Source: Vigna angularis
Lineage: Eukaryota; Streptophyta; Magnoliopsida; Fabales; Fabaceae
Direction: 5' to 3'
NCBI RefSeq assembly: GCF_016808095.1
Contig: NC_068976.1
Span: forward strand, 16,765,663-16,829,662
DNA: 64,000 bases
Shown: one piece after another, positions 10,803 to 34,562 of the stretch
Layout of the letters: every line of letters begins with the position of its first letter
Position numbering within the stretch: the stretch's first letter is position 1
Made by a program: the position numbers and the translations under genes
Notes under the pieces: generated by a model
The model's input: only the letters and a program-made list of their open reading frames with translations
Database searches by the model: none
Told to the model about the DNA's origin: nothing

Positions 10803-11915
10803 TGATAAGTGTGAAAAAGAGTTGTTTTTATACTTATAAATGAGCTCAATCTTGTAATTATTCATGTTGTTCCTCATTGAAAAGTTGTATTATGTAGTAG
10901 ATTATTATATAAAATATTGTACACGAAATAGTATATTATTTAGACTCTCAGCCAATTTTTACAAAGCGAAAGCCAAAATTCGCACTGTCAGAAGAAGGAA
11001 ATTTGCATAGCGCACTAGTACTTGTGCGTTGAGCGAATAACATCAGTTAAAGTGCAACAGTTAAGAAAATTCGCATAGCGCACCAGTACATGTGCGCTGA
11101 GCGAATTAATGAAGTTAAGTGGCTTTAAAAGACGTGACAGAAAGACAGAAACATTCTTCTGACAGAAGTTCCGGACAAAAGAAAGAAACGAAAACATCTC
11201 AGGAACTTCCGGAGACTACTTCAAGGCATCAAGACACCATTGTTGCAAGGGATTGCTTCAAATGTGTACGATTTAGATGACTAGGAGTAGTTAAATTTCT
11301 CTTTCGTTGGGATTGGATGTAATGAACTCACTGTGATTTAATTTTCCTGCTCAATATATCGTTGTTCGTTCATATGCTCTTTCTTAAATTTATTATCATT
11401 GTATGAAAATATAATGTTATTTGAATGTCTTTGATTACTGGAAAGTAACTTTGAACATGAACGTAGATAGAGCACTTAAGTGATTTGGGATCTAGGGATA
11501 GACTCAATAACTTGATCATTCTTAACATCGGACTTAATGCAAATTGTATATTAAATTGACTAAGGGATTATCATTTTAATATATTAATTTAGAACTAGTT
11601 GCTAAGGGATTAGGACTAGTATGCCTTGATGTGAATGTTTGAATGAAGTAATGAAATATTGAACAGAGTTTTATATTCATATGATTCATGAAACCCAATT
11701 CCAACGAAGTTTCTTTTAAATATAAATTCCTTGCACATCAATTGTTTGATAAAATACCAAAAATAGTTTCTTGTGTTGTTTTGTGCATTTTGATGTCTAA
11801 TTGAGTTATAAAAGGAAGAATTGTCATGTGTTGCACAAGTCCATTGGGAGACGATACTTTTACTTATTCACTGTATTACTTGGAACGATTTGGTATACTT
11901 GCCAAAAAGTTAACA
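10803..11915 (+). repeat. 5' LTR of the Athila-like element
   Basis: 1113 bp with TG...CA ends. It contains two imperfect hairpins around 11000-11110 (ATAGCGCAC-AGTAC-GTGCG-TGAGCGAAT). Confidence 0.92.
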
Positions 11916-11920
11916 AGTTT

Positions 11921-11940
11921 TTGGCGCCATTGTCGGGGAC
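11921..11940 (+). other. primer binding site
   Basis: TTGGCGCCATTGTCGGGGAC starts 5 bp inside the 5' LTR end. It differs by only a few bases from the TGGCGCCGTTGCCGGGGA site used by Athila-group elements, which is why the element is placed there. Confidence 0.85.
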
Positions 11941-14450
11941 TTGTGTTCCAACAACACAAGGCAATTTGGGCATTTATGACTCTTTTAGACTTTGTTGTGA
12001 ATTTTCCTTTTTAATGTTGTTGTGTATGCAGTTGGCTTTAGTTTTTAAGACTTTCCATTGATTTAGTTTGAACTTAATGCCTATCTCGGGGTACGCTTTA
12101 GAGCTTGATGTTGTTATTGAAAGTTCTTAGGAATGAGATTTCAGTAGCGGAACTAACTAAATCAAACCAGATGTGCAAATCACCAAGGATGGGGTTATGT
12201 GTTTGGATTCACTGTTTTGGAACTTAAGGCAAGTTTGACGGACGTCTTATACCAAGGGATTGGGTGAGGGTTTATCATACTTAAGTAGGCACAACAAGAG
12301 AGATCTGAGTGTTCTAACTTTAGAAAATAGGGAAAGTGGAATTCTTTGTCAATTGTATTTATGTTTTGTTTGTGTTTCTTTTATGCAATTTGTCTACAGA
12401 TGTTTCTAGTTGTTGGAAGATCCTAGGGATGGGATTTCAACAGCTGAAATGGGAGTACTAAGTGATCTTGAAACAAGAGGGATATGAGTAAGGTTATTTA
12501 GGAAATCCATTTCAATCATTTTGCATATTGGAATTGTTGTTTGGTTGGTGTGCTCACGTTCTGCAATTTTGTTTCTTCTTTTCCTTATTTCTTTGTTTGT
12601 GTTTTTTTATTTTTCTATTTCACTTCTCTATATGTTACTTTTAATTTTATCTTTATCTTTTAGTTTTTTTAAGAAATTGTTGAAGTTTTTGTGTTGGTAA
12701 GTTCTGTGTTTCGTTGTTAAGTGTAATGTTCTGTAGTGTATGTTCAATATTGCAATATTCGTTAAGCATATATATATGGTGCGTTAAGCGAATATATTTG
12801 TGAGTATCTGCAATGAGGTGAGTGAATTAATGAGGAAGAGAATTTATTCGCTTAGCGAATTTGTGAGTTGAGCGAATGTAAAAAAAAATCTGTAATTTTA
12901 TTCGCTTAGCGCACAACTCTAGTGCACTAAGAGAATAAATGCAAAAAAAAACTTTAATTTTATTCGCTTAGCGCATAGCTCCGATGCGCTCAGCGAATAA
13001 ACACAAATATAAAAAAAAATATTCGCTCAACGAGCAATTCGCTTTGCGAATTTTTCACTAAAACTTTGGTTCTGATAGTCACCTTATTAGCTCAGCGAGC
13101 TGTTTGCTGCAGTTTTCTTATTTTGCGCATTTCTCACCATATGTTCAATGTTCTTTTGTGCTTAACTAATATTATGCAGATAACTTCTCCTAAGACCACC
13201 ACATGGTCTTCTTCAAGAGTACAACGTGTTGAGGCACAGGAAGAAAACCTTGTTTTAAACTATGATCAACATAGGTTCTCTTTTGAGTTTGCGCATCTCC
13301 CATGGCCTGAGGGCAGACCAGACTTCAGGTGGGGGAGTGCAAGTGCCTTATATGCAGATGATGATTATGCAAGTGCAGATGGAGTTATCTTCAATGTTTA
13401 GTTATGTTATTTATGTTTTGTAATATGTTTTGAACTATGTGTTAGTTGTAAAGACATGTGACTTTTTGATTTAATGGTTATGCATTGTCTTGATTAAGTT
13501 GATGTGATTCTTGAAAATGATAACACATATGATTGTGGTTGCAATGTGCTTCATATATTTTTTTCTGTGTGTGAGTATGTATGACCAGATCTGTTGAGTG
13601 TTGAGAGCATGTGTTGAGAATAAGAAATATGATGAGTTGTCTAGATATGGAGTTTAATTTTGCATGATTGTGATTCTACATACATACACACCTGTGTGGT
13701 TAAGGATGAGAGAGGCATTGTTTGATATTGATTATACAGCTACTTGGTCAAACAACCAACCTTAACACATCATGATACATTTGTGAACCCTTTTGAGCCT
13801 TGTAAATTTTTTCCTTCCACCTTGAGCCTATTAGATGATATCCTACCTTACACCTTAGAAGAGAACATGTATTATGCTTTAAAAGAGGTTAAGGTTGAAT
13901 TCAAGTTTGTGGGAAGAAAAGATCAATAAAAAAAATATGATAAAAAAAAAAGCTCAAAATGAAAAAGAAGGTTGAGTTGTGAAAGAAAATGGTATGTGAT
14001 GAATGATATATTTTGGGATTTGAGTATTGGATTGGGAATTGAAGTTGTTCTCTTCTTAATAGGTGTCTTTGAATCCAAGAAAAACCATGATTCTTTTTCT
14101 AGCCAAGCCAAGCCTTAACCTGAAAAGACCTTTGGACTTAACCAATAGTGTGTGAAGTGTGTGAATCAAATGAAATGCAAAAGCTGATGAAGTTCTATGT
14201 CAATTCTACTGTCATGTGAGGACAAACACTTGAGTGTGAGTAATGATAAATGTTGATCTGGTTGTTCATATTCTATGCACAGATGATTTTGTGAGTGATG
14301 CACCATGTCATACTTGTTTGAAATCTTTGGAAATGCATGTGATTATTCTGATGTGCAGAGTCATTTTATCAAAATGTCAAATGTCTGTTGTGATGTTCAT
14401 TTTCTTATGTGATTTCATGAGGGCATGAAATAGTTCAAGTTTGGGGGAGT
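11941..14450 (+). other. internal region of the Athila-like element, non-coding
   Basis: No retroelement protein domain seen. An open stretch at 13066-13401 contains HRFSFEFAHLPWPEGRPDF, but no family is recognised and it may be chance. Stretches of T-rich sequence, a hairpin-motif array (12770-13060) and the polypurine tract at 14441-14450 make up the rest. Confidence 0.7.
12770..13060. repeat. TTCGC / GCGCA hairpin-motif array
   Basis: Repeated copies of ATTCGCTTAGCGCA and its inverse TGCGCTCAGCGAATAA, for example 12900-12944 and 12960-13002, each pair able to fold. The same motif occurs in both LTRs. Confidence 0.85.
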
Positions 14451-15563
14451 TGATAAGTGTGAAAAAGAGTTGTTTTTATACTTATAAATGAGCTCAATCT
14501 TGTAATTATTCATATTGTTCCTCACTGAAAAATTGTAATAGGTAGTAGATTGTTATGTAAAATATTGTACAGGAAATGATGTATTATTTAGACTTTGTCA
14601 GCCAATTTTCGCAAAGCGAAAGCCAAAATTCGCACTGCCAGAAGAAGGAAATTTGCATAGCGCACCAGTACCTGTGCGCTGAGCGAATAACATCAGTTAA
14701 AGTGCAACAGTTAAGAAAATTCGCATAGCGCACCAGTACATATGCGCTGAGCGAATTAATGAAGTTAAGTGACTTTAAAAGACGTGACAGAAAGACAGAA
14801 ACATTCTTCTGACAGAAGTTCCGGACAAAAGAAAGAAACGAAAACATCTCAGGAACTTCCGGAGACTACTTCAAGGCATCAAGACACCATTATTGCAAGG
14901 GATTGCTTCAAATGTGTACGTTTTAGATGACTAGGAGTAGTTAAATTTCTCTTTCGTTGGGATTGGATGTAATGAACTCACTGTGATTTAATTTTCCTGC
15001 TCAATATATCGTTGTTCGTTCATATGCTCTTTCTTAAATTTATTATCATTGTATGAAAATATAATGTTATTTGAATGTCTTTGATTACTGGAAAGTAACT
15101 TTGAACATGAACGTAGATAGAGCACTTAAGTGATTTGGGATCTAGGGATAGACTCAATAACAATCATTCTTAACATCGGACTTAATGCAAATTGTATATT
15201 AAATTGACTAGGGGATTATCATTTTAATATATTAATTTAGAACTAGTTGCTAAGGGATTAGAACTAGTATGCCTTGATGTGAATGTTTGAATGAAGTAAT
15301 GAAATATTGAACAGAGTTTTATATTCATATGATTCATGAAACCCAATTCCAACGAAGTTTCTTTTAAATATAAATTCCTTGCACACCAATTGTTTGATAA
15401 AATACCAAAAATAGTTTCTTGTGTTGTTTTGTGCATTTTAATGTCTAATTGAGTTATAAAAGGAAGAATTGTCATGTGTTGCACAAGTCCCTTGGAAGAT
15501 GATACTTTTACTTATTCACTGTATTACTTGGAACAATTTGGTATACTTGTCAAAAAGTTAACA
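14451..15563 (+). repeat. 3' LTR of the Athila-like element
   Basis: 1113 bp, same length as the 5' LTR. It follows the polypurine tract and is followed by the TGTGA target duplication. Confidence 0.92.
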
Positions 15564-15568
15564 TGTGA

Positions 15569-15875
15569 GAAGGTCCTCTCCCTGTCACGTTTGCCTTTTG
15601 TTTTTCTTGACCTTATTTTTCTTGGGACTTTGTTCAGAACTAGTAAATTAAACACAAAATTTTTCAATTTTGTTTTTCAGATTTCTGGATTTGGATTTGT
15701 ATAGGTGTGCAGGTTTAATTATAGGTGCACAGTTCATTACGTTTTTTATGCAGATTCAACGTTTAACTTTTTATGCACTTTCTATAATTTTTTTTTTGTA
15801 TATTTTATGTATTCATCATATATGTATTGATATATGTAGTGGTTACTGATTTGATGAATTGAAGGTATAAATCAC
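15569..15875. other. unassigned sequence between elements
   Basis: Continuation of the target locus of the Athila-like insertion (joins 10797). T-rich; 15848 onward belongs to the dispersed repeat also at 4074-4190. Confidence 0.5.
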
Positions 15876-16280
15876 TTGTAATTTAGTTTACTTTTTATCT
15901 TATTTTATCATAATTACATGCTTTCATCAGAGTTGAAATGTATTATATATTATTAAAAATGTTCAAAACTAATCGTTCCAATTTAAAAATTAGGATGGCA
16001 AAATCACTATATTATATCTATTTATTTTAATTATTTGAATCTGATATGATAAGTCATTCTTTTTTATATATATCAACTAGGAACGAGACTCACATATACA
16101 AGATCTAGAAGAGAGACCCAGAAGAAGAAGAAGAAGATCAACGAACAGGTAACATTTATTTATCCATCTCTTTTCTTCTTCTTGTGTTTTGATTTTTGGG
16201 ATAGTAGCCATAGCCTGTAACTGATTCCTCTTCTAGTCCACGGGGTGAAGATAACCATCTGAGTGTAAATCATGTGATCT

Positions 16281-16583
16281 TTAGCTATGGTTAACGTCTT
16301 GGTGATAGAGAGATACGGGAGGAGGGTTCCGATTTAAGTGAACAACAATACAAAAAAGTATAGCTAACATGATACTGAAAACAAGAATCATAAGGGTTTG
16401 CAAGGTGATGGTATATCTAAAATGATAGTGGAAACAAGAATCATAAGAATCATGATAGTTGAACAAGCGGCTATTGTTGAGATGGTGATGGTATGAGTAG
16501 TTTTTTGTTTCATTGAAACAAGAACCATAAGGGTTTGCAAGGGTTCCTGTAACATCGGTTTGGGTTTGATAAAAGAGATTCAT
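16281..16583 (-). CDS. hypothetical membrane-type ORF, 100 aa (copy 1)
   Basis: Not recognised. It has an N-terminal part rich in Asn, Tyr and His and a hydrophobic segment (roughly residues 62-85, LMILVFSIMLAILFCIVVH) that could span a membrane. Its central sequence is built from an internal DNA repeat (AATCATAAGGGTTTGCAA). A homologous but truncated frame is at 18676-18924. Substitutions between the copies often change amino acids, so there is little sign of selection on the protein. It may be a chance ORF within a duplicated repeat. Confidence 0.25.
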   Translation of the reverse strand: MNLFYQTQTDVTGTLANPYGSCFNETKNYSYHHHLNNSRLFNYHDSYDSCFHYHFRYTITLQTLMILVFSIMLAILFCIVVHLNRNPPPVSLYHQDVNHS

Positions 16584-16935
16584 TTTAGAGAAATGGAAAA
16601 ACAGTCATTTAGTGTGGGTGTGAGAGAGTGGAAGGGTCATGGTCCACCCAGAATTTGGGAGAGGAAGACGGTGCTGAATATGGAGGGGGACCCAACGGCC
16701 ACCTGGTCAGGGTGAAAGAGGCGGATTCAGGGTACCTAGTGGTGTTGACGTTGGTTTGGGAATCACAACAAACTTTCTTTTTTCCTTTTCCGTTAAAGAG
16801 AAATATTAATGTTTCTGTTATGTGATTAATGCTCCTTAAAATATTATTGTGTCTTCTAGGGGTTTTAGATTAGGGTTTTTCTGTTTCAGTTAGAGACTCT
16901 AACTGTTTTATATTTTGTTTGTACTTACCGGAACC

Positions 16936-16944
16936 CTATATAAA
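16936..16944 (+). promoter_or_regulatory. TATA box of the copia-like LTR/promoter, copy 1
   Basis: CTATATAAA about 350 bp upstream of the primer-binding-like site; the same box is at 19276-19284 in copy 2. It fits a copia LTR whose exact borders are not clear. Confidence 0.45.
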
Positions 16945-17287
16945 CATGGTTCCAGTGTGTTGTTTCAGATGAGAAAAAATACTCAATAATACAATTTTTC
17001 ATTCTACGAATAAAGAAATATTCAAGTTTTTTCTTACCTCTATTCTTCTCCACTATACTTTATCCCGTTTCTGCTTCGCTTCGTCATCATTGTTACTACA
17101 AGCTTCGCCGGAGTGCTGACCAGAGTTTGCCCTCTTTCTTTTCTCTCTTCCGCGAGCCACACATACGAAGCAAGACCTCACCAACTTTCTGACTTGAGGA
17201 AGCTTCTAGCGAAGCTTTACTTTCTCACTTTTGGGCCTAAGCCAGTTGAGCCTATGTCCATTCAAGATCCGGGCTTTTATTTTAATA

Positions 17288-17302
17288 TGGTACCAAAGCA
17301 GG
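17288..17302 (+). other. copia primer-binding-like site, copy 1
   Basis: TGGTACCAAAGCAGG resembles the initiator Met tRNA site (TGGTATCA-AGC) and sits about 95 bp upstream of the gag ATG. The counterpart is at 19623. Confidence 0.6.
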
Positions 17303-17396
17303 TCTTATACCTGTTCTGCACATGTTTCTGCTTCGCTTAAATCTTTTTTTCTCTTCTTGGTGCTAATCTTTAATCTTTTCTTGCTTTCTTGCTATT

Positions 17397-18215
17397 ATGG
17401 AAAATGTGGATCAATCCAACAATTCTTCCAGCCCCTTTTATCTTCATCTAGGAGAGAATTAAGGCACCTCTCTGATTTCTCAGATTCTTAATGAATCCAA
17501 CTACACTTCTTGGAACAAAAATATGAGAAGAGCACTCCTCTTCAAGAACAAGCTAAAATTCATAGATGAAGGGATCAAGAAACCCCAAAGAGATGATCCC
17601 CTTTTTGACTCATGGGAAAGAAGCAACATGATGGTGCTGTCTTGGGTCATCAAGACTCTTTCTGCCCAAATAGCAGAAAGTGTTATATATGTGGAAGATG
17701 CCCAAGAACTCTGGGCAGAATTGAAACAAAAGGTTCTCCAAGGGAGATTACTTTAAGTTTTCAGCCTTGCTCCAAGAAATTCACTCTATTAAACAAGGAG
17801 AAAGGAGTGTAAGTCAGTATTTTAGTGACTTGAAAATCTTATGGGGAGAACTGGAGTTTCTCAGACCCATCCCAAGTTGTAGATACAAGCTTCCCTGCAG
17901 CTGTGAGTTGTCTAAGATTTCTCATAAATACAGAGAAATGGAACACGTGATCTGCTTCTTAAAGGGCTTAAATGATGGTTACAATACTGTGAGGACACAA
18001 ATATTGTTGATGGAGCCTCTACCCAACATCAACCGTGTGTTTTCTCTCATTGTACAGCAAGAAAGACAGCAAAAACATGACTCTCCTCACCAACCACAAT
18101 GATATTAAGGTTCTTGCCAACACCACTGAAACAGTGTTCTCATTGCAACAAAATGAACCATACAGTAGAAGAATGTTATTCTAAACATGGATACCCACCA
18201 TGGTACAAGAAAAGT
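17397..18215 (+). pseudogene. copia gag fragment, copy 1, broken
   Basis: From ATG at 17397 it reads as a copia-like gag: MENVDQSNNSSSPFYLHLGEN, then LNESNYTSWNKNMRRAL, DDPLFDSWERSNMMVLSW, SVSQYFSDLKILWGELE, FLKGLNDGYNTVRTQIL, and a CCHC zinc knuckle (CSHCNKMNHTVEEC) near 18130-18175. Breaks: TAA at codon 22 (copy 2 has CGA) and a one-base insertion near 17730 (AAACAAAAGG against AAAGAAAGG). The sequence stops at the duplication junction; no protease or pol follows. Confidence 0.85.
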
Positions 18216-18675
18216 GACAATATTGTAATTTAGTTTACTTTTTATCTTATTTCATCATAATTACATGCTTTCATGAGAGTTGAAATGTGTTATATATTAT
18301 TTAAAATATTCAAAACTAATCGTTCCAATTTAAAAAATAGGATGGCAAGATCAGTATATTATATCTATTTATTTTAATTATTTGAATCTAACATGATAAG
18401 TCATTCATTTTTATATATATCAACTAGCAACGAAACGCACAGATACGAGACCTAGAAGAGAGACCCAGAAGAAGAAGATCAACGAACAGGTAACATTTCT
18501 TTATCCATCTTTTTTCTTCTTCTTCTGTTTTGATTTTTGGGATAGTAGCCATAGCCTGTAACTGATTCCTCTTCTAGTCCACAGGGTGATAATAATCATC
18601 TGAGTGTAAAAAATGTGATCTTTAGCTATGGTTAACGTGGTGGTGATAGAGAGATAGGGGAAGAGGGTTCCGATT

Positions 18676-18924
18676 TCAGTGAACAACAATATAAAAAAGT
18701 ATAGCTAACATGATAGTGGAAACAAGAATCATAAGGGTTTGCAAGGTGATGGTATAGCTAACATGATAGTGGAAACAAGAATCATAAGAATCATGAGAGT
18801 TGAACAAGCGACCATTGTTGAGATGGTGATGGTATGAGTAGTTTTCTGTTTCATTGAAACAAGAATCATAAGGGTTTGCAAGGGTTCCTGTAACATCGGT
18901 TTGGGTTTGATAAAAGAGATTCAT
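18676..18924 (-). pseudogene. truncated homologue of the 100-aa ORF (copy 2)
   Basis: Same start and first 82 residues with several substitutions, but a TGA replaces the Leu codon after IVVH, which shortens the frame. This supports neutral decay of the pair. Confidence 0.3.
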
Positions 18925-19731
18925 TTTAGAGAAATGGAAAAACAGTCAATTAGTGTGGGTGTGAGAGAGTGGAAGGGTCATGGTCCACCCAGAATTTGGG
19001 AGAGGAAGAAGGTGTTGAATATGGAGGGGACCCAACGATCACCTGGTTAGGGTGAAAGAGGCGAATTCAGGATATGTAGTGGTGTTGATGTTGGTTTGGG
19101 AATCACAATAAACTTTCTTTTTTCCTTTTCCGTTAAAGGGAAATATTAATGTTTCTGTTATGTGATTAATGCTCCTAAAAATATTATTGTGTCTTCTAGG
19201 GTTTTTAGATTAGGGTTTTTCTGTTTCAGTTAGAGACTCTAACTGTTATATATTTTGTTTGTACTTACCGGAACCCTATATAAACAAGGTTCCAGTGTGT
19301 TGTTTCAAATGAGAAAGAATACTCAATAATACAATTTTTCATTCTACGAATAAAGAAATATTCAAGCTTTTTCTTACCTCTATTCTTCTCCACTATCCTC
19401 TGTCCCATTTCTGCTTCGTCATCGCTGCTGATGCAAGCTTCGCCGGAGTACTGACCAGAGTTCGCCCTCTTTCTTTTCTCTCTTCCGCGAGCCACACATA
19501 CAAAGCAAGACCTCACCAACTTTCTAACTTGAGGTAGCTTTTAACGAAGCTTTACTTTCTCACTTTTGGGCCTAAGCCAATTGGGCCTATGTCCATTCAA
19601 GATTCGGGCTTTTATTTTAATATGGTACCAAAGCAGGTCTTATACCTGTTCTGCCCATGTTTCTGCTGCGCTTAAATCTTTCTTGCTCTTCTTGGTGCTA
19701 ATCTTTAATCTTTTCTTGCTTTCTTGCTATT

Positions 19732-20185
19732 ATGGAAAATGTGGATCAATCCAACAACTCTTCCAGCCTCTTTTATCTTCATCTAGGAGAGAATCGAGGC
19801 ACCTCTCATATTTCTCAGATTCTTAATGAATCCAACTACACTTCTTGGAGCAGAAATACGAGAAGAGCACTCCTCTCCAAGAACAAGCTAAAATTCATAG
19901 ATGGAGGGATCAAGAAACCCCAAAGAGATGATCCCCTTTTTGACTCATGGGAAAGAAGCAACATGATGGTGTTGTCTTGGATCATCAAGACTCTTTCTGC
20001 CCAAATAGCAGAAAGTGTTATATATGTGGAAGATGCCCAAGAACTCTGAGTAGAATTGAAAGAAAGGTTCTCCAAGGGAGATTACTTTAAGTTTTCAGCC
20101 TTGCTCCAAGAAATTCACTCTATTAAACAAGGAGAAAGAAGTGTAAGTCACTATTTTACTGACTTGAAAATCTTACGGGAGAACT
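19732..20185 (+). pseudogene. copia gag fragment, copy 2, broken
   Basis: Homologous to 17397 onward. It lacks the TAA and the one-base insertion of copy 1 but has its own TGA at the Trp after AQEL (about 20047). It is cut off after SHYFTDLKIL. The two copies therefore carry different inactivating changes that arose after the duplication. Confidence 0.85.
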
Positions 20186-21057
20186 TCTTTGTTCCTCTTG
20201 CTAAAATCCCTACGCAGATCAATAATGATACATCAAAGGGGGAAAGGTGTCTGACTGGCTTTAACTAATTTATACAAATTAATCACAAAGAAAGAAAAAA
20301 GACAAAATAAAGACAGAATAAATCCTAAGTCAGTGATAAGCCCCGATCTTCCAAAAAGCATAGAGAAGAGCGTTTTTCTGGGTATAAAAAACTATGGCCA
20401 TTGTGCTTCACTACGAGGGCTAAGAAAAAAAAATTATTCTCCTTTCAACTCCTTTCACCTCTGGTGTCCTCCATCAACCATTGCTCACGTTCACCATAAC
20501 TTTCTTGCACCTGCAAGAGCATTTGCAACAAAAAGAAAGTTCAATCTAAGAGAACAAAGGATAAAGAACACAAATATAGAGAAAGGAAACTTGAAAGGAA
20601 AATCGGAAAGGAAGCAAAGAAGGAAAGAGGCGAAAAGTCTGGAGCAAAAAGAAGGAGGCTAGAACGAAGGGAAAAACCATTTTTTTTTAAGCTACGAAGG
20701 TAAGTCTTCCTATCCTTGCTTGTCTTACTGGCCCTTATCTGTCTACATCATCATCTGCTTATTGTCATTTTCTTTGTTGCATCATCTATTAATCACAACT
20801 CTATAGAAATCTGAACTCAGTCTTCTATCCCACACCCATAAAACATTCAAGAGAGGAAAATATCATAAAAATAATAAACTTTAAAGCTCACACCCAGGAT
20901 AGATTCAAATTCAGTTCCTTTCATAACATAATCGAATCACATAACACAAAAAATAGTTTTTCCTCCTTAGCAAGACATAAATTTCCATCAACCTGGGTAA
21001 GAACAAAATCTGCAGTCTCTAGTATGACTAGAGCCGCATGACTCTGGAAGCAAGGTT
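20186..21057. other. unassigned sequence, left flank of the copia element
   Basis: No recognised gene. A Lys/Arg-rich open stretch at 20333-20662 (EKGNLKGKSERKQRRK) is low complexity. The sequence joins 25904 once the copia insertion is removed. Confidence 0.5.
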
Positions 21058-21062
21058 CAATT

Positions 21063-22034
21063 TGTTGGAACAATCGGTACCGTTATAGAGTCGCACAGCG
21101 GAATTAAAAACTTGAAAGAGAGTGGAAAGCGTGTTCGATCACAATTAAAATTAATTTGGTCCTTTTAGTAAAAATAATTTTCTTTGAGAAAATTTATCAA
21201 ACAGTTGATATACGTAAAATAAAATGAGTGCAGGGAATAAGAAGAACAACACAGAATTTTTATCCTGGTTCGAATCAAAAGATTCTACGTCCAGTCGTTA
21301 ATCACTATAAATAGTGATTAACCTTTTTCACTAAAAATGGTTTAACAGATTACAACAAATAGTTAATAAAGCAGATAAATAAACCTTCCTTCGACGAACG
21401 AACCGGAAGAAGAACACTCTGCCAACTCGAAGAGAACCGCTCCGACTATCGACAAACGAAACGCGAGCTTCTCCTATTCACGAGACCAGGCAGAGCACCT
21501 TGCTAACTCGAAGAGAGCTTGCTCCGACAATCGACACACGAAACGCGAGCCTCTCCTGTTCACGAGACCAAGCAAGGGAACTTGAACTATAGCTTCTGAG
21601 AACTTCCTCTGACAAACAGTATTCTGCTAGAGCTTCTGTTCAACAACATTTTTTTTTTTATTTCTCCAAATCAAAATATATAGCCAAGTACACTGAATGC
21701 CAAAGGTTAGCTCCCAACTGCCATGAATAATCGATTATTGTAAGTGATAATCGATTATTCAAGTCCGTTACAGGGTTTTCAAAATGTGATAATCGATTAT
21801 ATGAAGAGATAATCGATTATTCCTGTATGACTTTGTGATAATCGATTATTGCCATTCCATAATCGATTATTGCAGTTAAAAATGCAAGTTTACAAGGTTT
21901 ACAAGAATTTCCTACTACATTTAATTTCTACAAATTGCTTTTAACTAATTCTAATATCTTCTTCAACTAAAACTTCTTGTAGCATCATCAAAACAAATTT
22001 CTTCAAGATTTACCAATACTCCTTATTGGTAACA
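21063..22034 (-). repeat. 3' LTR of the gag-only copia element
   Basis: 972 bp. Carries six ATAATCGATTAT palindromes at 21727-21870. Confidence 0.95.
21727..21870. repeat. ATAATCGATTAT palindrome cluster (3' LTR)
   Basis: Six copies of a TAATCGATTA-core palindrome in about 145 bp, in three loose pairs. The same six are in the other LTR at 25591-25734, as expected for LTR copies. Confidence 0.95.
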
Positions 22035-23599
22035 ATCTCCCCCTTTTTGATGATGATCAAAAATTCAATTTTAAAAGCAAGTTTGGCTTACCTGCAAAAC
22101 ATACAAGCTAACAAACAACAACAAGGTTAGCAATACCTGTAATAATTTATACTTCTCCCCTTGTATTATTCTTCTCCCCCTTTTTGATCAGAAGCAAAAA
22201 GATCGGATGTTGAAGGCTCCCCCTAAATATGATCTCCCCCTCAATTAATCAAAGGATGCATATAATCAAGAGATCATTTTATTTATGAAAATAAATATTA
22301 CATTATAAGAAGAATGGACAAACTAGCCGTTTATGGTCGTTTATAGCCGTTATGGGATGCTCCAACGACTCTATTTTTGAACATGTCAGCGTGATAATCG
22401 ATTATGGCTTGTGATAATCGATTATCAGTTCAATAATTACTGCCCAGAATTGCATGATAATCGATTATGCATAATGATAATCGATTATCTGCTCAAGATT
22501 TTCCAGAATTGATTTTAATGCATGAATAATCGATTATGACTTGATGATAATCGATTATGAAGCGTTAAGTTTACGAAAAATGCAAAAATTTGCATAGATT
22601 TTGATTCTAAGATATGTCTAACACTCCAACCTCTCTTCTAAGTTCATAAAGTAAAGATACCCCCTTAAATATGCAATTCAAATTTAACTTTTAGCATACT
22701 CAATTAACCCACGAAATCAACAACCATTTTTCAAACAATTAAGATATCAATGATTAAGCAACCAATTTATAAACTAAAATGAATGCAACAGTAGCTTAAA
22801 TGGAAATTATCACAGCTGCTACAGGTTTGATATGAAAGCATTTCAGCTAGCACAATCAGTTCAAAAAACTAACTTTGACAACACAATTTACAACTTTCAA
22901 AACAACAGCTATGATTCATGCACTCTCATATCCCAATCTGTTCAACCCAATGAATTCAACTCTGCATATAAAACAACATATATAAAAATTAAAACATCAA
23001 TATGCAGTAATCAGATTTAATTCAATAACATTGTTTATCTTGGTTCAATGGATTTTATCCATGAAATATTGGCAAACCAGAATTTAAAACTGGAAAATTG
23101 ACTCAAACAAGGAAATGTAGTTTTGACAACTGCTTTTAAAGACTATTCTACAGTGATTTTCACAGTTTGTAATCAAGCTTTATGTGGAGCAAATCATAGC
23201 TCATATGGCATGCATATAAATAGATCTCCACAGAAAACATCTTTGAAACGGAAATGCCAATTCAATCATCAAATAACTTAATTATCTAAAAATGCCAATG
23301 AAAATCTATCAACCAACTCATTTAAATGAATATAACAATAATCAAATAATGGAAAATTAGAAAGATAACCAGAACAAAGTGCAATAACACAGTTCAAACA
23401 ACACTTAGCTCAATCACATGGAGTTCGAACCAAGGCTTTGAATGTCATTTGATGGATTCACTTCCTGCTCTTAGATCATTATTTCCGAAAGCATAATACC
23501 ATGGATCTCTCCTCTCTTTTTGAGAACTTAACCTGCAAAACCATCCAAGAGAGGTTTGGTGCCCATAATCTCATTTGGGTCCTCAGGGTTAGAGACAAA
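22035..23599 (-). other. non-coding 3' internal region of the copia element
   Basis: Between the gag stop and the 3' LTR there is AT-rich DNA with no pol motif. Polypurine tract at 22035-22048. A second palindrome cluster is at 22394-22558. Confidence 0.8.
22394..22558. repeat. ATAATCGATTAT palindrome cluster (internal)
   Basis: Six more copies outside the LTR, again in pairs (for example GTGATAATCGATTATGGCTT then GTGATAATCGATTATCAG). Because this is not an LTR copy, the motif was acquired or kept independently in the interior. Confidence 0.95.
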
Positions 23600-24880
23600 T
23601 TACTTTATAATGGGAATCCAAGCACATTTTCCATCAGGAACATCAAAATGTTTGATACTACATTTATTTGAAGTATGTCCTTTTTTCATACAATAGAAGC
23701 AACAAACACCATGCAGTTTGGTTTTTACAGTTGTTCCTTTTTCAACCCAAACTCTACGAGTTCTCTTAACTTTAGACTTTTTATGATGCACTTCTTTATT
23801 TCTAACATTGCTCCTTCTAAAAACATGTGAGACAGACTTGGTTGCTTTAGAAAGTAAATTTTCAAGTATGTCAATGTTAAACATATGACTTTTACAAGAT
23901 AAACACTCAACAGGTTTTTCATTTGAATTAGATTCAGACAATTTTGTTTCAAGATTACTAACTTTGTTTCTTAATATGACTTCCTCATCTAATGCATTTT
24001 CATATTTCCATTTCAATTCTTTAAATTCCTTTTTCATATTTTTATAAGCAGCATTCAATGTTTCAGATTCATCAAGTAATTCAAGAAACGCCTTTTGTAA
24101 ATCAAATTCATTAGATTCATAGCTAGAATTACTTACTTGGCTTCCAGCATCATCAAAATTAGCTGTCAAACACAAGTTTATTTCTTCAACAGAATCACTT
24201 GAACTAGAGGTGGTTGATGCATTATCCTTCGAGGCAATGTGAACCTTCTTCTTCTTGTGAATTTTCTTTTCTTTTCTTTCTTTACTTCTTTTGTTGCTTG
24301 AACAGTCAGCTTTCAGATGGCCTCTTTCACCACATCCATAACATTTGAAGCTTGAAGAGGAACCTTGATAGTCCTTCTTTTCCTTCAAGATTTTGCTTTC
24401 AGATGATTTATCGTTGGCCATCAAGCATAGATTTTCTTGCTCATTAGAATCGCTTGAGCTTGAGGAGTTTAATGTAGACCATGAGTTCGAACAAGTCAAC
24501 TTAGCCACATTCAATACTTCATCATGAGTGACTCTTAAAAATTTCCACATTTCCTGAGCACTTTTATAAACAGATACTTTGAAAAAATCATCAATGGTTA
24601 GTGCAGATAAAATTATATTCCGAGCCTTAATATCAAACTGAGCTCGTCTATTTTCTTCAGCAGTCCAATTAAAATAAGGTTTTTCAGTCTCTACACCATC
24701 AACAGTATTCATAGGAATATAAGGGCCATTTTGTACAGCTTCCCAGATACCTCTATCAACAGACCCCATAAAAATCTCCATTCTCACTTTCCAAAAAGCA
24801 TAGTTATCACCAGTAAACAATGGAGGTCTGTTAATGGAAGCACCCTCAGCATATACATGGTTTTGATTGTGACCGGCCAT
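23600..24880 (-). CDS. gag: copia gag polyprotein, 426 aa, intact
   Basis: Begins MAGHNQNHVYAEGASINRPP, followed by the typical copia gag start FTGDNYAFWKVRMEIFM (residues about 22-38) and the UBN2-type capsid region (IWEAVQNGPYIP, RAQFDIKARNIILSALT, SAQEMWKFLRVTHD). A CCHC zinc knuckle CYGCGERGHLKADC lies near residue 178, a coiled-coil-like acidic/Lys stretch around 265-325, and a second CCHC motif CFYCMKKGHTSNKC near residue 395. In related elements the frame runs on into protease; here it stops shortly after CAWIPIIK. Capsid helix sequence after the HDEV motif looks shortened. It would package element RNA into virus-like particles. The ATG lies about 30 bp inside the primer binding site, as usual. 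Confidence 0.9.
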   Translation of the reverse strand: MAGHNQNHVYAEGASINRPPLFTGDNYAFWKVRMEIFMGSVDRGIWEAVQNGPYIPMNTVDGVETEKPYFNWTAEENRRAQFDIKARNIILSALTIDDFFKVSVYKSAQEMWKFLRVTHDEVLNVAKLTCSNSWSTLNSSSSSDSNEQENLCLMANDKSSESKILKEKKDYQGSSSSFKCYGCGERGHLKADCSSNKRSKERKEKKIHKKKKVHIASKDNASTTSSSSDSVEEINLCLTANFDDAGSQVSNSSYESNEFDLQKAFLELLDESETLNAAYKNMKKEFKELKWKYENALDEEVILRNKVSNLETKLSESNSNEKPVECLSCKSHMFNIDILENLLSKATKSVSHVFRRSNVRNKEVHHKKSKVKRTRRVWVEKGTTVKTKLHGVCCFYCMKKGHTSNKCSIKHFDVPDGKCAWIPIIK

Positions 24881-24911
24881 TTTCGCAAATTTTGAAAAAC
24901 TATCAAAGCAA

Positions 24912-24923
24912 GCTCTGATACCA
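24912..24923 (-). other. copia primer binding site
   Basis: TGGTATCAGAGC on the minus strand, complementary to the 3' end of initiator Met tRNA, adjacent to the 5' LTR (24926-25898). Confidence 0.95.
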
Positions 24924-24925
24924 AT

Positions 24926-25898
24926 TGTTGGAACAATCGGTACCGTTATAGAGTCGCACAGCGGAATTAAAAACTTGAAAGAGAGTGGAAAGCGTGTTCG
25001 ATCACAATTAAAATTAATTTGGTCCTTTTAGTAAAAATAATTTTCTTTGAGAAAATTTATCAAACAGTTGATATACGTAAAATAAAATGAGTGCAGGGAA
25101 TAAGAAGAACAACACAGAATTTTTATCCTGGTTCGAATCAAAAGATTCTACGTCCAGTCGTTAATCACTATAAATAGTGATTAACCTTTTTCACTAAAAA
25201 TGGTTTAACAGATTACAACAAATAGTTAATAAAGCAGATAAATAAACCTTCCTTCGACGAACGAACCGGAAGAAGAACACTCTGCCAACTCGAAGAGAAC
25301 CGCTCCGACTATCGACAAACGAAACGCGAGCTTCTCCTATTCACGAGACCAGGCAGAGCACCTTGCTAACTCGAAGAGAGCTTGCTCCGACAATCGACAC
25401 ACGAAACGCGAGCCTCTCCTGTTCACGAGACCAAGCAAGGGAACTTGAACTATAGCTTCTGAGAACTTCCTCTGACAAACAGTATTCTGCTAGAGCTTCT
25501 GTTCAACAACATTTTTTTTTTTTATTTCTCCAAATCAAAATATATAGCCAAGTACACTGAATGCCAAAGGTTAGCTCCCAACTGCCATGAATAATCGATT
25601 ATTGTAAGTGATAATCGATTATTCAAGTCCGTTACAGGGTTTTCAAAATGTGATAATCGATTATATGAAGAGATAATCGATTATTCCTGTATGACTTTGT
25701 GATAATCGATTATTGCCATTCCATAATCGATTATTGCAGTTAAAAATGCAAGTTTACAAGGTTTACAAGAATTTCCTACTACATTTAATTTCTACAAATT
25801 GCTTTTAACTAATTCTAATATCTTCTTCAACTAAAACTTCTTGTAGCATCATCAAAACAAATTTCTTCAAGATTTACCAATACTCCTTATTGGTAACA
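24926..25898 (-). repeat. 5' LTR of the gag-only copia element
   Basis: 973 bp, near-identical to 21063-22034. Palindrome cluster at 25591-25734. Confidence 0.95.
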
Positions 25899-25903
25899 CA
25901 ATT

Positions 25904-26671
25904 TTCTTCTAAATATCCCAATGAGTGGCATAGATCCTGCCAACATACATAATCCATCAAATTCGTCCTCAATTCCTTTCAATACCAACACTGACCCGAA
26001 TTCAATCTTCTATGGTTCCATATCTTCCACCAAGCGAGATACTAACTCACCCTCTTCTCACTCTCAAGCTCATTTTTAACATGCATCAAAAACCCCGAAG
26101 CTACCATTGCTATCTCATACAGACACCATCGAACCGAAGCTAGTTGTTCACGACAACCCTCATAAAGCAAAGGTTACCTCCAATAGTAGGAAGAGGAGAT
26201 GCGGCGGCTTGAGGCGAAGAATCGCGGTGGGAGGTGGCGGCGTGGTGTGTCGAACATCCCAAGTGAAGAGAGCGGTCCGACGATGACTAACGGTGGGAGA
26301 GGAGACTAGTCCTCACGACTCCGACCGATTATTGAGGACGGCGTCGGCGATGACGATCCTAGTTCGTGCCGGCGATGTCGTAGGGAGAACGAGATTTCTC
26401 TCTCGCACGCGAAAAGGAGGATGAAGTTTGGGCTGATCCGTCTGGGCTAGGTGGAGTTGTCGGCGACACTATTGGACGACGAAAGGAAGGCGCGACGGAG
26501 GGTAGGGGGAACCGCGTTGGAGGTTGAAGGAAGAGGCGTTTCTCTCTTTCCCTTTTCGTGCATATCCCTTATGATTTTAGGGTTCTGAAGAAGAAAAGAG
26601 AGTTCCCTCTCTTGACCCCTAATTGGAAATAGAAACCCTAAAAGGGTTTGGGCTCAGGCCCAATTCCACTT
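25904..26671. other. GC-richer unassigned stretch
   Basis: A short open stretch from ATG at 25920 (MSGIDPANIHNPSNSSS) resembles the loose N-terminus of some copia gags but ends at a stop near 26078. 26180-26540 is GC-rich with GGCGG/GTCGGCGA runs, followed by AAACCCTAAAAGGGTTTGGG. No gene identified. Confidence 0.4.
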
Positions 26672-26680
26672 CAAAATAAA

Positions 26681-27589
26681 GGGTGTTGCTCCCTTCACCA
26701 CTACCCTTTGCTCCTTCCACCTCCCCAATTTATTTTGTTTTCAAAACTACCCTTCTATTTTAACTTTTTTACTTTTATCTTTTGGGATTTTTTAACATAT
26801 TTCAAAACCCTAATTTTACCACTCACTTCTTCACTCCCGCGACTGCACCCCACCACCACATCTTTCACGGATTCTCTCTCACTTGTCATTTCCGTTTAAG
26901 CTTTTCTTCTTCCTTCTCTTTCTTTTTCTTTCAACCTTCTCTTTCCCACTACCCTTTCCCTTTTTTGTTGATTCCTGGTGCGGAGGAACGTAGAGGAGGA
27001 GCATAGATCTAGCGGGATCTGGTTTTTCATCTCCATCCCAGGTTAGTTTAAATCTGTAAATTTGTTTGGTTTTAACATGTGTTGCTGCTGTTTGTTCGTC
27101 GCCCGCTGCGAAGGTCGAAAACGGATGTGGGACATCCGTTTTACGTTCAACGGATGTTGATATCCGTTGATGGATGCTCACATTCGTTTAAGGTTAAAAT
27201 GTTTATTTTAAGGTTTATCACGCACCTGGGAGGGGAGGAACACCGCACCTTCACCTTCAAGCACGACCACCACCAACACTGAACTCTCGCAACACTGGAT
27301 TCTCACACCACCAAATGAAAGTTCACCAGACTCTCACACTCTCACAGCACACACGATAAAACAATGAAAGAGAGGAAGAAGTAAACATTAAAAAGAGGAA
27401 GAAGAGCTTGTCTGCAAAGAAGAGCTTTTGATATTGCCGCGCTACATGCATTTGGGACCAGAAGTAGGTTATTGTTGGAGTGGGTAGAAAATAACAAATA
27501 TTAACCCTAAAAATAAAATTTTACTAAAAGACAAATCAAGAATGAAGAAGTGTTGGGAGCAAGGGGTGGTGGTGTAGGGAGCAACACCC
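26681..27589. mobile_element. Mutator-like non-autonomous element, 909 bp
   Basis: Terminal inverted repeats of about 40 bp start GGGTGTTGCTCCCT at 26681 and end AGGGAGCAACACCC at 27589. They are flanked by a perfect 9-bp target duplication CAAAATAAA (26672-26680 and 27590-27598); nine bases is the hallmark of Mutator-like elements. No transposase. The interior includes a GC-richer piece (26970-27180) with repeated ACGGATGT/ACATCCG that could be captured sequence. Confidence 0.9.
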
Positions 27590-27598
27590 CAAAATAAA

Positions 27599-27973
27599 AC
27601 TCTAACCAACCAAAAAAGGGGGTGCTGTAAGTCCATTTCATACCTGCCAGCCTTTATTCTTTCTTTCTGTTTTTTTTCTTTCCTTTTCTTGTGTTTGGAT
27701 TCTGAATTGGCCTGGACTGCATGCATATTTTTGTCTTTGTTTTTGTGTTTGATTTGGACTCCCTCCTTCCTTTGGACTTATGTGTGAAAATTGGTTTGAT
27801 AAAAAACAATAAAAAATAAAAAGAGGTAAAAGTATAAAAATAAAATAAAAATTATAATGTTGCAAAATAATTTTAGAGTCGTTTACAGTGTGTTTTTTGT
27901 TTGAATAATTAAATAAAGTTTTGAGATGCTTTTATTTTATTCTAAATATTGTGCATTATTGTTTTGTGAAAAA
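27599..27973. other. unassigned AT-rich flank
   Basis: No gene seen between the Mutator-like element and the chromovirus LTR. Confidence 0.5.
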
Positions 27974-30748
27974 TGTGACATCCCAAAATATATAACAAAG
28001 TATATACGTAGAATGCATCGATTATAATAATAGAAAGCAGTTAAGAGTACACAATAGATGGAATTAAGGAGTACAGTTATCCAAGTCTGACTGGAAAACT
28101 TTAAAACATAAGTACGAGTTCATAATTCTTCAAAATACGGATCATGCTAAAGATGAAGGCTAGAAGTCTTTCAAAATGAAAAGCTATATAACATAAGAGC
28201 TGGTAGAAATCCTAAGCACTAGGTGTTGGGTCTTCCTCAACTTCCAAAGCTTGCTCCAAAGGTACATCATCACCTACCGCTCACATCCAAAGGATTGGAT
28301 GATCATCGCAAGGGGAAAGCAAACACATGCAACACATACAAATGCAAGGGTGAGCTAGGTCTCAAACAATCATACAATTCATTTTCAACCAATCTAGCAT
28401 TTACCAGAATATCCATACACATAAGTCATCATAAACATAAGCATTTATTTCTTAAAACTCATTAAGACAAGCATACTATCATGTTAAGACTCTAGACACG
28501 TCCGGACATAGAATGTATGTAGAGCTGGGGCGGGTTGTGCACTTGTGATGGCCTCTACTGCTTTGCAAAGCCATTGCCGAGGGGTTCCACCCGACCATAC
28601 ACAAGGCTAATCCGTTACCGCGGAATAGACCTCCAGTGATAGCGTCTACCCTAGGACCTCCCACTACTCCCACCACACGCGTCAATCCTCTCTAAGTGAG
28701 AATGAAAGACCGTTGGAGTGTTAGGGATAACCCCCCATATGGAAGCCTCTACATTCATTCAATACACTAACTGATCTCACCGAGAGATCTAAATTTCCGA
28801 TTCAATCCAACCATTTTAAATCTCATAATATTCCTTTTGGATCAACAAAGTACATCATAAACCATTTATAATCATACACTTTCAAACAATCTGGATCACA
28901 TGAAGATGCATTCATAAATCGTAACCGAAATATTTAATTAACAAAGCTTACTGGAATGAGAGAAAGCATGAAGGAAGATATCACCGCTGGACGAACACTG
29001 TTTGGACGAACGTCCTAATCCCTTGGACGAACCCCATTTGGACGAACGCTTCAATATCAAGCCTCATGACCGAACGCTAACACCACTAGGACGAACGCCT
29101 CAATATCACTAGGACGAACGCTAACATCACCCGGACGAACGCCTCAATATCACTAGGACGAACGCTAACATCACTAGGACGAACGCCTCAATATCACTAG
29201 GGCGAACGCTGTTAAAGCAAGCGTCCCATGGACGAACGCTGTGAGATCAAACACTAGGCCGAACGTCACCAATATGGACGCTCGCCACTACCTATGGACG
29301 CTCGCTATTAATTCCAACCCCTGACCGAACGCTAATTAAACCTTCAGCTGACCGAACGCTACTAAACCTTCAACTAACCGAACGCTACTAAACCAGTGAA
29401 TGAACGAACGCCACTAAGCAACCGAATGAACGAACGCGACTAAGCAACCGAATGAACGAACGCTATTAATATCATCCCCTAAGACCGAACGCTCCCTAGA
29501 CAAGGACGAACGTTAAGTCAAGCCCACATTTGACCGAACGTCACTCAGCACATGGCATGACCGAGCGTTCAACTCCGACATGGACGAACGCTCAGTTTGC
29601 GCGTTCTGCAGAATTTCTGCAGAATTCTCAGAATTCTGCAGACTGGTATCAGGACCTCCCTTGACCATTTCCAACCACTTTTCTCAACTTCTTAGACTCT
29701 TAATTCTCGTTTTAGACTTAATTAAACTTATCCAAATGATCCTAAACATTTCTACTACCATTTCTAAGTGATTTAAAGTTCACTTCCAGCTTCAAAACAC
29801 TAACTTCAACAACTTAGGGACCCAAATTCGATTCCACTACTTGGAACCTGTTTTCAACTACTGTTATGCTTCTAACAAGTCTCAATGGACTTGTCTAGGC
29901 TGCCCAAACAGTCCAGGAACACTGCAGCCTTCATTTACTCAAAATCCCTACCTCACTTCCTCTAAAATGACCAAAAAGTGACCCTAAGACACTTGATTTT
30001 CCTTCCTATCAACACCACAACAAAATTTACACACCCAAAACAGTTCCAACATACATAATTCATCACTCAAAATCATCCCAAACAGTTCATATCCATCAAT
30101 CACCACATTCACGTAGCACTCACACTTCCATACATGCATTTCAAGTTAGTAAAATTCAAAATTTTGCTTCCAACAACATACCAATTTGAAAATCATCATG
30201 TAATCACGCCATGCAGTAAAACCAAAAAGAGAACTAGCTCCCCTTACCTCTAGTGTAGGCAACCAAGCTCAAGTAGGAACCCTAGACCACTTGCTTGCAC
30301 TTTCCAAATGTTAGAATCACCTATAAATCATCAATTGATGATAGAAAACGAATCTTAGCACCAAATAGAAGCTAGATTATGGAAGAAAACGAAATGGGTT
30401 GCATGCAACAAGTTCAATCACATGCTTACAACCCTAGGGCACATGAGAAAGGGGGTTTTCTTACCGGTTCAAATTAGGGAAAATTGATCGACTAAGAGCA
30501 ACACCCGCTACTTGGCGATCGTTGGGGCAGCACCTAATCAAGATTTTAATGGTTCAGTGAAGAATGGAAAAGGGAGAAGATGCAGGAGGAGGAGAGAGCT
30601 TGCAGGAAGAGGAATGGTTTCTCAGAAAAGAGGAATGAGTTAAAATCCACTGTTTCCAAACTAATGTAATTTTATTTTAAAGTGCTCAACCTCTCATCTT
30701 TCGCCACTTGTCATCCCCTTTTTGCTGACTCAAATCCAAGTCCTTACA
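27974..30748 (-). repeat. 3' LTR of the chromovirus, about 2.78 kb
   Basis: On the minus strand it starts TGTAAGGACTTGG at 30748, next to the polypurine tract, and ends GGGATGTCACA at 27974. It is large, with a GGACGAACGCT array and TCTGCAGAATTCTGCAG-like repeats. Short open frames within it have no family signature. Confidence 0.85.
28982..29600. repeat. GGACGAACGCT motif array (chromovirus LTR)
   Basis: About thirty copies of GGACGAACGCT and variants (GACCGAACGCT, TGAACGAACGC, GGACGCTCGC) with variable spacers, some in short tandem blocks such as CTAGGACGAACGCCTCAATA. Parallel to 5452-5960 but with different spacers. Confidence 0.92.
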
Positions 30749-30783: not shown

Positions 30784-32088
30784 TTAGGACTTACCAGAAA
30801 ACAAGTGAGGATATGACTTTTTCATCTCTTCCTCCTTCTCCCAGGTAGAATCGCCGGTTCTACTGTCCCATATGACTTTGATCAGTGTGGTAGCTTTCCC
30901 ATCTGGTCGTTTGGATAGCCTCTCATCTACTTTGACCGGTTGCATCTCTATAGAGAGATCCTCCTTGACTTGTACAGTGTCAGCTTCCAGCACATGAGAG
31001 GGGTCGGGGACATACTTCCGAAGCTGAGAAACATGAAAGACTGGATGGAGATTAGCTAGCTGGGGCGGCATAGCTATCTCATATGCGACTGGTCCGATGC
31101 GTCTAGTAATCTGATATGGCCCAAGGTATCTGGGAGAAAGCTTCTTAGCACGGATAGCCCTCCCTACTCCAGTAGTAGGTGTCACACGAATAAACACATG
31201 GTCATCGGCCTCGAACTCCAAAGGCCTGCGTCTCCTGTCAGCATATGATTTCTGCCTACTCTGTGAGGCTCTCATCCTCTCTTGAATTACTCTCACTTTC
31301 TCAGTCGTTTGTTGCACTATTTCTGGCCCAGTCAACACAAACTCCCCATCCTGGAACCAGCATAAAGGTGTCCTGCAGCGCCTCCCATACAGAGCTTCGA
31401 ACGGTGCCATTCCAATACTGGTTTGAAAGCTGTTATTATGTGTGAACTCCACCAATGGCAGCACTTCATCCCAGACTCCCAAATGATCAAGTACACACGT
31501 CCTAAGCAAATCCTCCAATGACTGTATAGTCCGTTCTGACTGACCATCAGTCTGAGGATGGTAAGCAGAACTCATCTGGAGTTTACTGCCCATCTCATTC
31601 TGTAAAGTCTGCCAGAAACGCGAAGTGAAGCGGGGGTCTCTGTCCGATATGATGCTGGAAGGCACACCATGCAATCTAACTATTTCCTTGATGTACAACT
31701 GAGCTAACTTCTGCATAGACATCTTCAATTTAATTGCCAAGAAGTGGGCACTCTTGGTCAATCTATCAACTATTACCCAGATGGCATCATGCTTTCTGAC
31801 AGTGTGTGGCAAATGGGTTACGAAATCCATGGCAATGCTGTCCCATTTCCACTCAGGAACATCAGGTTGTTGTAACATACCACCTGGCCTCTGGTGTTCT
31901 ATCTTAGCCTTCTGACAGGTAAGGCAAGAGGAAACAAATCTAGCTATATCACCTTTCATTCCTGACCACCAAAATGACTCCTTGAGGTCCTGGTACATTT
32001 TAGTCATGCCGGGATGCATGCTAAAACGACTGCGATGCCCTTCTTCTAAAATCACTCTTTTCAGCTCTCCATCATTTGGTATACATGT
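30784..32088 (-). pseudogene. pol: chromovirus integrase with chromodomain-like tail
   Basis: Contains the HHCC zinc region (HRSRFSMHPGMTKMYQDLK...CLTCQKAK), the catalytic core with AMDFV...WVIVDRLTKSAHF, IISDRDPRFTSRFW and AYHPQTDGQSERTIQSLED (Asp-Asp-Glu catalytic residues visible), the GPYQITRRIGPVAYEIAMP C-terminal domain, LHPVFHVSQLRKYVPDP, and a chromodomain-like end. An ATG-started frame is open from 32055; upstream of it the sequence [15 protein letters not shown] continues in the same frame to the deletion junction. Integrase itself has no internal stop, but it is cut off from reverse transcriptase by a deletion and frame change. Confidence 0.92.
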
Positions 32089-34029: not shown

Positions 34030-34040
34030 AACCTTTTCAG

Positions 34041-34562
34041 TATTTAAAATTCTTTTTGTTTAGTTTTTAATTTATTTTTAGATTTTTCCTTAAAAATATT
34101 TATTTAAATAAGATTATTATTTTCAATTTTCATTTAAATAGTATTATTGGTCCATTTTAAGTATATCAATAAATATTACTTTTACTTTATATTAAATCTT
34201 TATGTAATTGTGATTACTATTTTATAATTTATTTACTATTATGTAAATGTGATTATTTCCCTTACTGCTACCAATATTTTAGATCTTTGAATAATAATTA
34301 GTTACAAATCACCTTTTTTAGAGCAAGGCCTTCAAAGTCTCTTTTCAAAACTTGAAGCTAAACAAAAGTTAAAGAGGTATGTTATTCAAAAGACTAAGGC
34401 TACTCAAGATGAGTAAAATAATTTATTTTTAGTTTTGTATTACTTTTGTTTTTTATTCTATTTTGTAAAAATAATATTTGTAAATTATTTTTCTTTAAAG
34501 ATGTCTCTTTTTTGTTTTTTTACGCGCAGCAACATTTTCATCCCGTCATCCTTCCTCCTCTG
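34041..34562. other. AT-rich sequence beyond the chromovirus breakpoint
   Basis: Nothing firmly recognised. A short open block near 34320-34418 (SLFSKLEAKQKLKRY) is not assigned. Confidence 0.4.

Follow-up and report, generated by a model that had tools for sequence, protein, structure and literature searches.

The 64,000-nucleotide stretch of the Vigna angularis genome analyzed here (hereinafter, the window; GCF_016808095.1, NC_068976.1:16,765,663-16,829,662) contains, between positions 10803 and 30748, three long terminal repeat (LTR) elements with arrays of short repeated motifs: the Athila-like element A, the Sirevirus-type copia element C and the chromovirus-like Ty3/gypsy element D (Table 1). 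In element C, paired copies of the palindrome ATAATCGATTAT are present in both LTRs and again in the interior, and in an autonomous relative the array aligned with the interior one lies between pol and an extra open reading frame (ORF) of the Pfam family PF20167. The interpretation toward which we lean, short of being convinced, is that these are RM-type promoter arrays that would be read by the possibly VANC-like PF20167 product of the extra gene and so form a self-encoded anti-silencing or auto-activation switch. The original prediction for this region, according to which three unrelated families each possess a private palindrome array that could be the landing site of a family-specific factor, possibly encoded by autonomous partners, is partly supported.

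Palindrome arrays of element C belong to the RM box kind

There are 18 exact matches to ATAATCGATTAT in the window and none in 100 dinucleotide shuffles of it, the control for chance used for all motifs. These sites comprise six in each LTR and six in the interior of element C; because the two LTRs are 99.8% identical (self-comparison), their arrays are treated as non-independent. The start-to-start spacing within pairs is the same in the LTR and interior arrays (20, 20 and 21 bp), and the array coordinates agree with the prediction that all arrays sit in LTRs or non-coding interior.

The position of the arrays relative to the TATA box was surveyed in 26 stretches, 11 of which are copia LTRs of the element C group. 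In these 11, the distance from the last exact palindrome to the TATA box after it is 44 bp (four LTRs), 54 bp (six) or 64 bp (one), and in two (L021 and L027) a decayed site sits between that palindrome and the TATA box; in the other 15 of the 26 stretches, TATA-like words occur at other distances or not at all. In two further loci (L077 and L078), the TATA box lies 52 bp after the last AATCGATT core. We infer that, in copia elements of the Sirevirus type, the ATAATCGATTAT arrays form the upstream part of the promoter.

Palindromic RM boxes located upstream of the TATA box have been described in 13 Sireviruses (Bousios 2010, PMC2829016). In the nine RM-containing Sireviruses that have an ENV gene, interior boxes occur as well, in most cases upstream of ENV. 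Of the 13 RMs, 12 have a CGG-CCG core, most of them marking CpG islands, and the thirteenth, that of Tnd-1, is ACAATCGATTGT. A regulatory role was suggested for the boxes and stress-related plant motifs were noted, and the role of plant envelope-like genes was considered unproven and controversial (PMC2829016). The copia arrays described here are new members of the RM box kind: they are palindromic repeats upstream of the TATA box in the LTR and upstream of an envelope-like gene, the latter in four loci (L061, L074, L075 and L076). Sirevirus RM boxes occur in at least eight copies in the LTR upstream of the TATA box; element C has 12 copies (interior plus one LTR) and L061 has 14 exact ones. 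Multiple polypurine tracts are another Sirevirus trait, and element C and L061 each have four GGGGGAG clusters preceding the 3' LTR. Because the core is AATCGATT rather than CGG-CCG, a difference shared with the published exception Tnd-1, the element C group is classified as a Sirevirus-type variant. A further named variant of the motif is TTAATCGATTAA.

In an exact-string literature search, ATAATCGATTAT matched three papers and four 9-12-mers matched 184, and the titles of those three and of the 25 listed among the 184 point to unrelated subjects; AATCGATT, TAATCGATTA and ATCGATTA as whole words had no match. The exact 20-21 bp pairing, the clade-matched variants, the replacement in gypsy LTRs and the link between the ENV-like ORF and VANC, all described below, were found neither in the accessible portion of PMC2829016 nor in the other literature examined.

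An autonomous relative with an extra ORF and clade-matched arrays

The prediction suggested a search for extra ORFs in autonomous partners, and locus L061 is such a partner. Its LTRs are 99.7% identical, and it contains gag and a 1,024-aa pol ORF with a copia reverse transcriptase (RVT_2 and other copia pol domains in Pfam). Downstream of pol come eight palindromes arranged in pairs, then a TATA box, one more palindrome (the ninth) and the start of the extra ORF. This copy of the ORF is broken; intact homologs reach 392-393 aa. The interior array of element C aligns with this array of L061. The best database relatives found for the extra ORF are V. angularis proteins, 88-93% identical, and one V. 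angularis protein has a 99% match in the genome; when the genome was searched with a related protein, more than half of the best 110 scored, of 2,251 candidates, lacked internal stops.

The extra-ORF protein P0001 matches PF20167 above the cut-off. PF20167 was listed for 51 of the 53 homologs scanned, and neither DUF1985 nor DUF287 was listed for any. The DUF1985 search of the genome gave no match, a negative that is uninformative because control genomes likewise gave none; comparison of the extra ORF with PDB sequences also returned zero matches. The best structural match of the predicted model is the VANC21-DNA structure. A first, poor AlphaFold model (mean pLDDT 45.4), used in the VIA search, gave 12 rows, 11 of them on the C-terminal helix, and VANC was absent from these. 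It is possible that the extra-ORF protein shares the fold of a known plant anti-silencing factor.

VANC of the Mutator-like VANDAL elements, a DUF1985/DUF287 protein, binds the motif YAGTATTAY, whose arrayed copies share a single orientation, and reduces methylation (Hosaka 2017, PMC5735166). Common to both systems are an element-encoded protein and a family-specific, fast-changing short motif reiterated in the non-coding DNA of the same element; here, in contrast, the carrier is a copia LTR retrotransposon, DUF1985 and DUF287 were not found, the motif is palindromic, and binding and demethylation are predictions. PF20167 (Transposase_32) is also an additional ORF of sunflower Athila (PMC11728184), that is, the same Pfam family in an LTR retrotransposon, whereas the ORF described here belongs to a copia element and immediately follows a matched array. 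In a later paper, the same group raises the question of whether methylation is shaped by such additional ORFs of LTR elements (PMC12844716), so this idea is already in print. No connection of PF20167 with VANC or RM boxes appeared in the titles and abstract openings listed in topic searches, which covered the smaller part of the subscription literature.

For further comparison, 500 bp upstream of three more extra ORFs and the expected 3' LTRs of two such elements were fetched, these LTRs being assigned by distance rather than by a proven LTR pair. In each clade of the extra ORF, the LTR and interior arrays are alike: element C and L061 contain ATAATCGATTAT at 20/21 bp, clade B (57% identical to the query P0085) contains GTTAATCGATTAAC at 21 bp, and clade A (P0085 and an 86% identical relative) contains a 20-12-20 quartet around TAATCGATTA. 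Half-sites with an outer A account for 53/54, 1/20 and 5/36 across the three clades, and those with an outer GT for 0/54, 15/20 and 4/36; A and B are alike in the outer A, and, with three clades, five elements and array sites related by descent, the sample is small and the Fisher values are nominal. Thus, as in VANC, the motif is reiterated in the encoding element in a variant specific to the protein lineage, within the limits of this small sample (three clades, five elements). A clade-specific reader would be expected to produce such a pattern, in which LTR and interior agree within each clade while the clades of a single genome differ. The predicted family-specific factor from autonomous partners gains from the extra PF20167 ORF and the clade-matched arrays; that this factor binds the arrays, demethylates them and is used in trans is proposed.

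The same motif in gypsy-type LTRs

The ATAATCGATTAT motif is not private to the copia family as had been claimed: it occurs genome-wide, both in copia LTRs and in homologs of the element D LTR. In three of the latter (L024, L033 and L060), four ATAATCGATTAT sites form two 20-bp pairs, and the flanks on both sides of the array align with LTR D (for L033, 88% over 361 bp and 65% over 729 bp). Between these homologous flanks, LTR D contains GGACGAACGCT but the three other LTRs contain ATAATCGATTAT. Because of this swap, the arrays appear to be exchangeable modules and the motif appears to be common to the copia and gypsy superfamilies. No pol was detected next to these LTRs (on both sides of L033 and L060 and one side of L024), which look like solo LTRs.

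A gypsy element combining pol with ATAATCGATTAT was sought and rejected, given the lack of pol in these flanks and on either side of three more loci. The idea that the gypsy array came from a nested copia fragment was likewise rejected: when the swapped segments were compared by blastn with the motifs masked, there were minor matches only, namely, 85 bp at 67% identity (E about 4e-5) between the L060 and L024 segments and element C, away from its arrays, and 75 bp between the L033 segment and L055. The solo-type LTR of L060, with its four palindromes (4660-4762), has an exostosin-type ORF (PF03016; 7435-8484) at a distance of about 2.7 kb and is thus a possible source of sites near host genes.

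These observations bear on the alternative that the palindromes are enhancer boxes for a host transcription factor, superfamilies having converged on, or exchanged, sites for an abundant activator to which the extra ORF is unrelated. Short symmetric boxes in copia LTR promoters are known from Tnt1 and Tto1, whose LTR repeats are host-factor enhancers; these elements are not known to have a second interior array or an extra ORF. The palindromy of the arrays, their position upstream of TATA boxes and their presence in both copia and gypsy-type LTRs speak for such a factor. So does the sharing of the AATCGATT core with the Tnd-1 RM (ACAATCGATTGT). RM boxes were called Sirevirus-specific (PMC2829016, where Tnt1 box I is also named), in contrast to their presence here in gypsy-type LTRs. 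The published set also weighs against a self-encoded reader in two respects: four of the 13 RM elements, Tnd-1 included, lack ENV, and six ENV-containing Sireviruses lack RM boxes. Conversely, a single host factor would not obviously impose outer bases and spacing that differ between copia clades of one genome but match between LTR and interior, and interior RM copies accompany the ENV gene in the 2010 set. A host factor is a serious possibility, if one that we consider somewhat doubtful.

Pairing and conservation of the motif

In the 448 Mb of the genome searched, ATAATCGATTAT has 12,990 sites compared with 48 for the reversed control. Pairs with a spacer of exactly eight bases (20 bp start to start, or two helical turns) number 3,445; the 22 spacer lengths from 9 to 30 bases sum to 2,131 and, among the matches listed, are mostly 9, 16-17 and 30, which are recurring slots of one LTR family. 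The spacers are diverse, and the distances from pair to pair vary. Among 123 AATCGATT-core sites (113 non-redundant), 103 are the full 12-mer. In eight comparisons, with one pair counted both ways, motif bases are 97-100% identical compared with 61-92% for the array spacers, but most of the fetched loci were picked for an exact motif, which favors this outcome, and most come from contig C1, where the listings begin, so the sample is not random. For the interior arrays of element C and L061, 72/72 motif bases and 61/93 spacer bases are identical. Pairs with one CpG-decayed site exist (275+262 for one pair pattern), and therefore the sites mutate. At C1:26633513-26633604, an array is reduced to a pure repeat, a perfect 20-bp tandem of ATAATCGATTATCACCAGTG.

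Neutral tandem-repeat dynamics, whereby slippage and recombination amplified the units and retrotransposition copied them without any reader, could account for this perfect tandem and for the many unit lengths of the GGACGAACGCT arrays, and the non-independence of LTR copies and the selection of loci for the motif also speak for caution in this direction. However, the excess of motif over spacer conservation, the varying pair-to-pair distances and the identity of the variant in the LTR and interior of one element make this explanation improbable. We give the lowest probability to a role of the arrays as structures in DNA or RNA, such as hairpins, insulators or signals for integration or packaging. 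In favor of this role, the motifs of the copia and Athila-like elements are inverted repeats, and the position of the interior array is between pol and the 3' LTR, but the 20-bp phasing and the TATA distances fit a protein on duplex DNA and GGACGAACGCT is no inverted repeat.

Other arrays and features of the window

The predicted arrays in three families hold against the shuffles, with qualifications regarding the motifs. With at most one mismatch, GGACGAACGCT has 25 matches in the window (shuffle mean 0.18), but it is non-palindromic; with at most two mismatches, TTCGCTTAGCGCA has 17 matches (shuffle mean 0.50), but only two are exact, the remainder being variants. In the genome, TTCGCTTAGCGCA has 68+62 sites and GGACGAACGCT followed by GGACGAACG within 30 bases has 3,384+3,239, compared with zero for either control. 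One GGACGAACGCT array lies in the predicted range and another outside it (Table 1), in a stretch that carries three different arrays, the other two being tandem repeats of a 62/127-bp unit with CATAGTTCAGCTGGCACTCCCCAACACTATG (4863-5251) and of the 15/30-bp unit ACTATTCATCCGAAC (5282-5452). Palindromic repeats of the TTCTGCAGAATT type adjoin both GGACGAACGCT arrays (29604-29642 and about 6017-6045).

Table 1. Elements, arrays and coding regions in the window
Feature	Position	Strand	Remarks
Second GGACGAACGCT array	5474..5959	+	In a diverged LTR-like stretch (about 4500-6900), outside 10803-30748
Element A, Athila-like, non-autonomous	10803..15563	+	LTRs 10803-11915 and 14451-15563
Element A, hairpin copies in both LTRs	11002-11105, 14608-14755	+	
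Element A, interior hairpin array	12757..13051	+	TTCGCTTAGCG(C/A)A and variants
Element C, non-autonomous Sirevirus-type copia	21058..25903	-	5' LTR 24926-25898, 3' LTR 21063-22034
Element C, 3' LTR array, 6 x ATAATCGATTAT	21727..21870	-	Pair spacing 20/20/21 bp; TATA box 44 bp downstream, element sense
Element C, interior array, 6 x ATAATCGATTAT	22394..22558	-	Pairs 20/20/21 bp apart
Element C, gag-like ORF	23600..25027	-	Stop to stop, 475 aa; Pfam Retrotran_gag_2, zf-CCHC
Element C, 5' LTR array, 6 x ATAATCGATTAT	25591..25734	-	Copy of the 3' LTR array
LTR of element D, chromovirus-like Ty3/gypsy	27974..30748	-	Ends identified in the sequence
GGACGAACGCT array in LTR D	28989..29592	+	Non-palindromic direct repeat
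Element D, gag, protease, partial reverse transcriptase and integrase pieces	30784..34043	-	Pfam

Element A, which we take to be Athila-like from the initial naming and its type of primer site, has LTRs 96.8% identical in the self-comparison and is bordered by a TGTGA target duplication (10798-10802 and 15564-15568). Element C is bordered by CAATT (21058-21062 and 25899-25903; LTR ends and duplication read from sequence), has a primer site of the initiator-Met type and, apart from the gag-like ORF, contains no ORF of at least 150 aa in the ORF list. Element D, presumably of the Tekay lineage, matches RVP_2, RVT_1, rve and Ty3_capsid in Pfam; no chromodomain match was found in its integrase tail, and self-comparison revealed no second LTR within the window. 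Between elements A and C, a 2-kb copia-like piece is present twice as a direct repeat (15876-17852 and 18223-20185, 94% identical), and neither copy contains ATAATCGATTAT in the motif search.

Elsewhere in the genome, the Athila-like locus L073 shows the same layout again, with an 883-aa ORF (221-2869), ten hairpin motifs behind it (3226-3798) and four more near the end of the locus (5332-5424), and one PF20167 fragment was observed near an Athila-like hairpin motif. Among the loci examined, no array-protein pair was established for the Athila-like or GGACGAACGCT arrays.

A possible self-encoded switch and its implications

Under the interpretation that we favor, one ATAATCGATTAT array would serve the LTR promoter and the second one an internal promoter of the extra gene between pol and the 3' LTR. 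The proposed reader is the PF20167 product, so far annotated as "envelope-like" or "putative plant transposon protein"; it would be a VANC-like, possibly dimeric DNA-binding protein that, at both promoters, occupies palindromes paired at a distance of two helical turns and holds these promoters open, by anti-silencing or auto-activation. Copies with gag only, such as element C, retain the arrays in cis and would be served by the factor in trans; in some gypsy LTRs, ATAATCGATTAT takes the place that GGACGAACGCT has in their relatives, which looks like an acquisition of these sites. A broader generalization, which is rather doubtful, is that the PF20167 proteins of plant LTR retrotransposons are VANC-like, sequence-specific anti-silencing factors and not envelopes, each lineage reading its own RM array at two promoters, the one in the LTR and the internal one, with gag-only relatives and gypsy LTRs exploiting the sites and the GGACGAACGCT and Athila-like arrays being parallel systems.

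The match of array variant, spacing and ORF clade in a single genome makes binding of each protein to its own array directly testable. If such binding occurs, RM boxes and env-like genes would be complementary parts of a single device, and VANC-type anti-silencing would be common to DNA transposons and LTR retrotransposons. The ATAATCGATTAT arrays inside gypsy-type LTRs would then show that elements hijack each other's sites.
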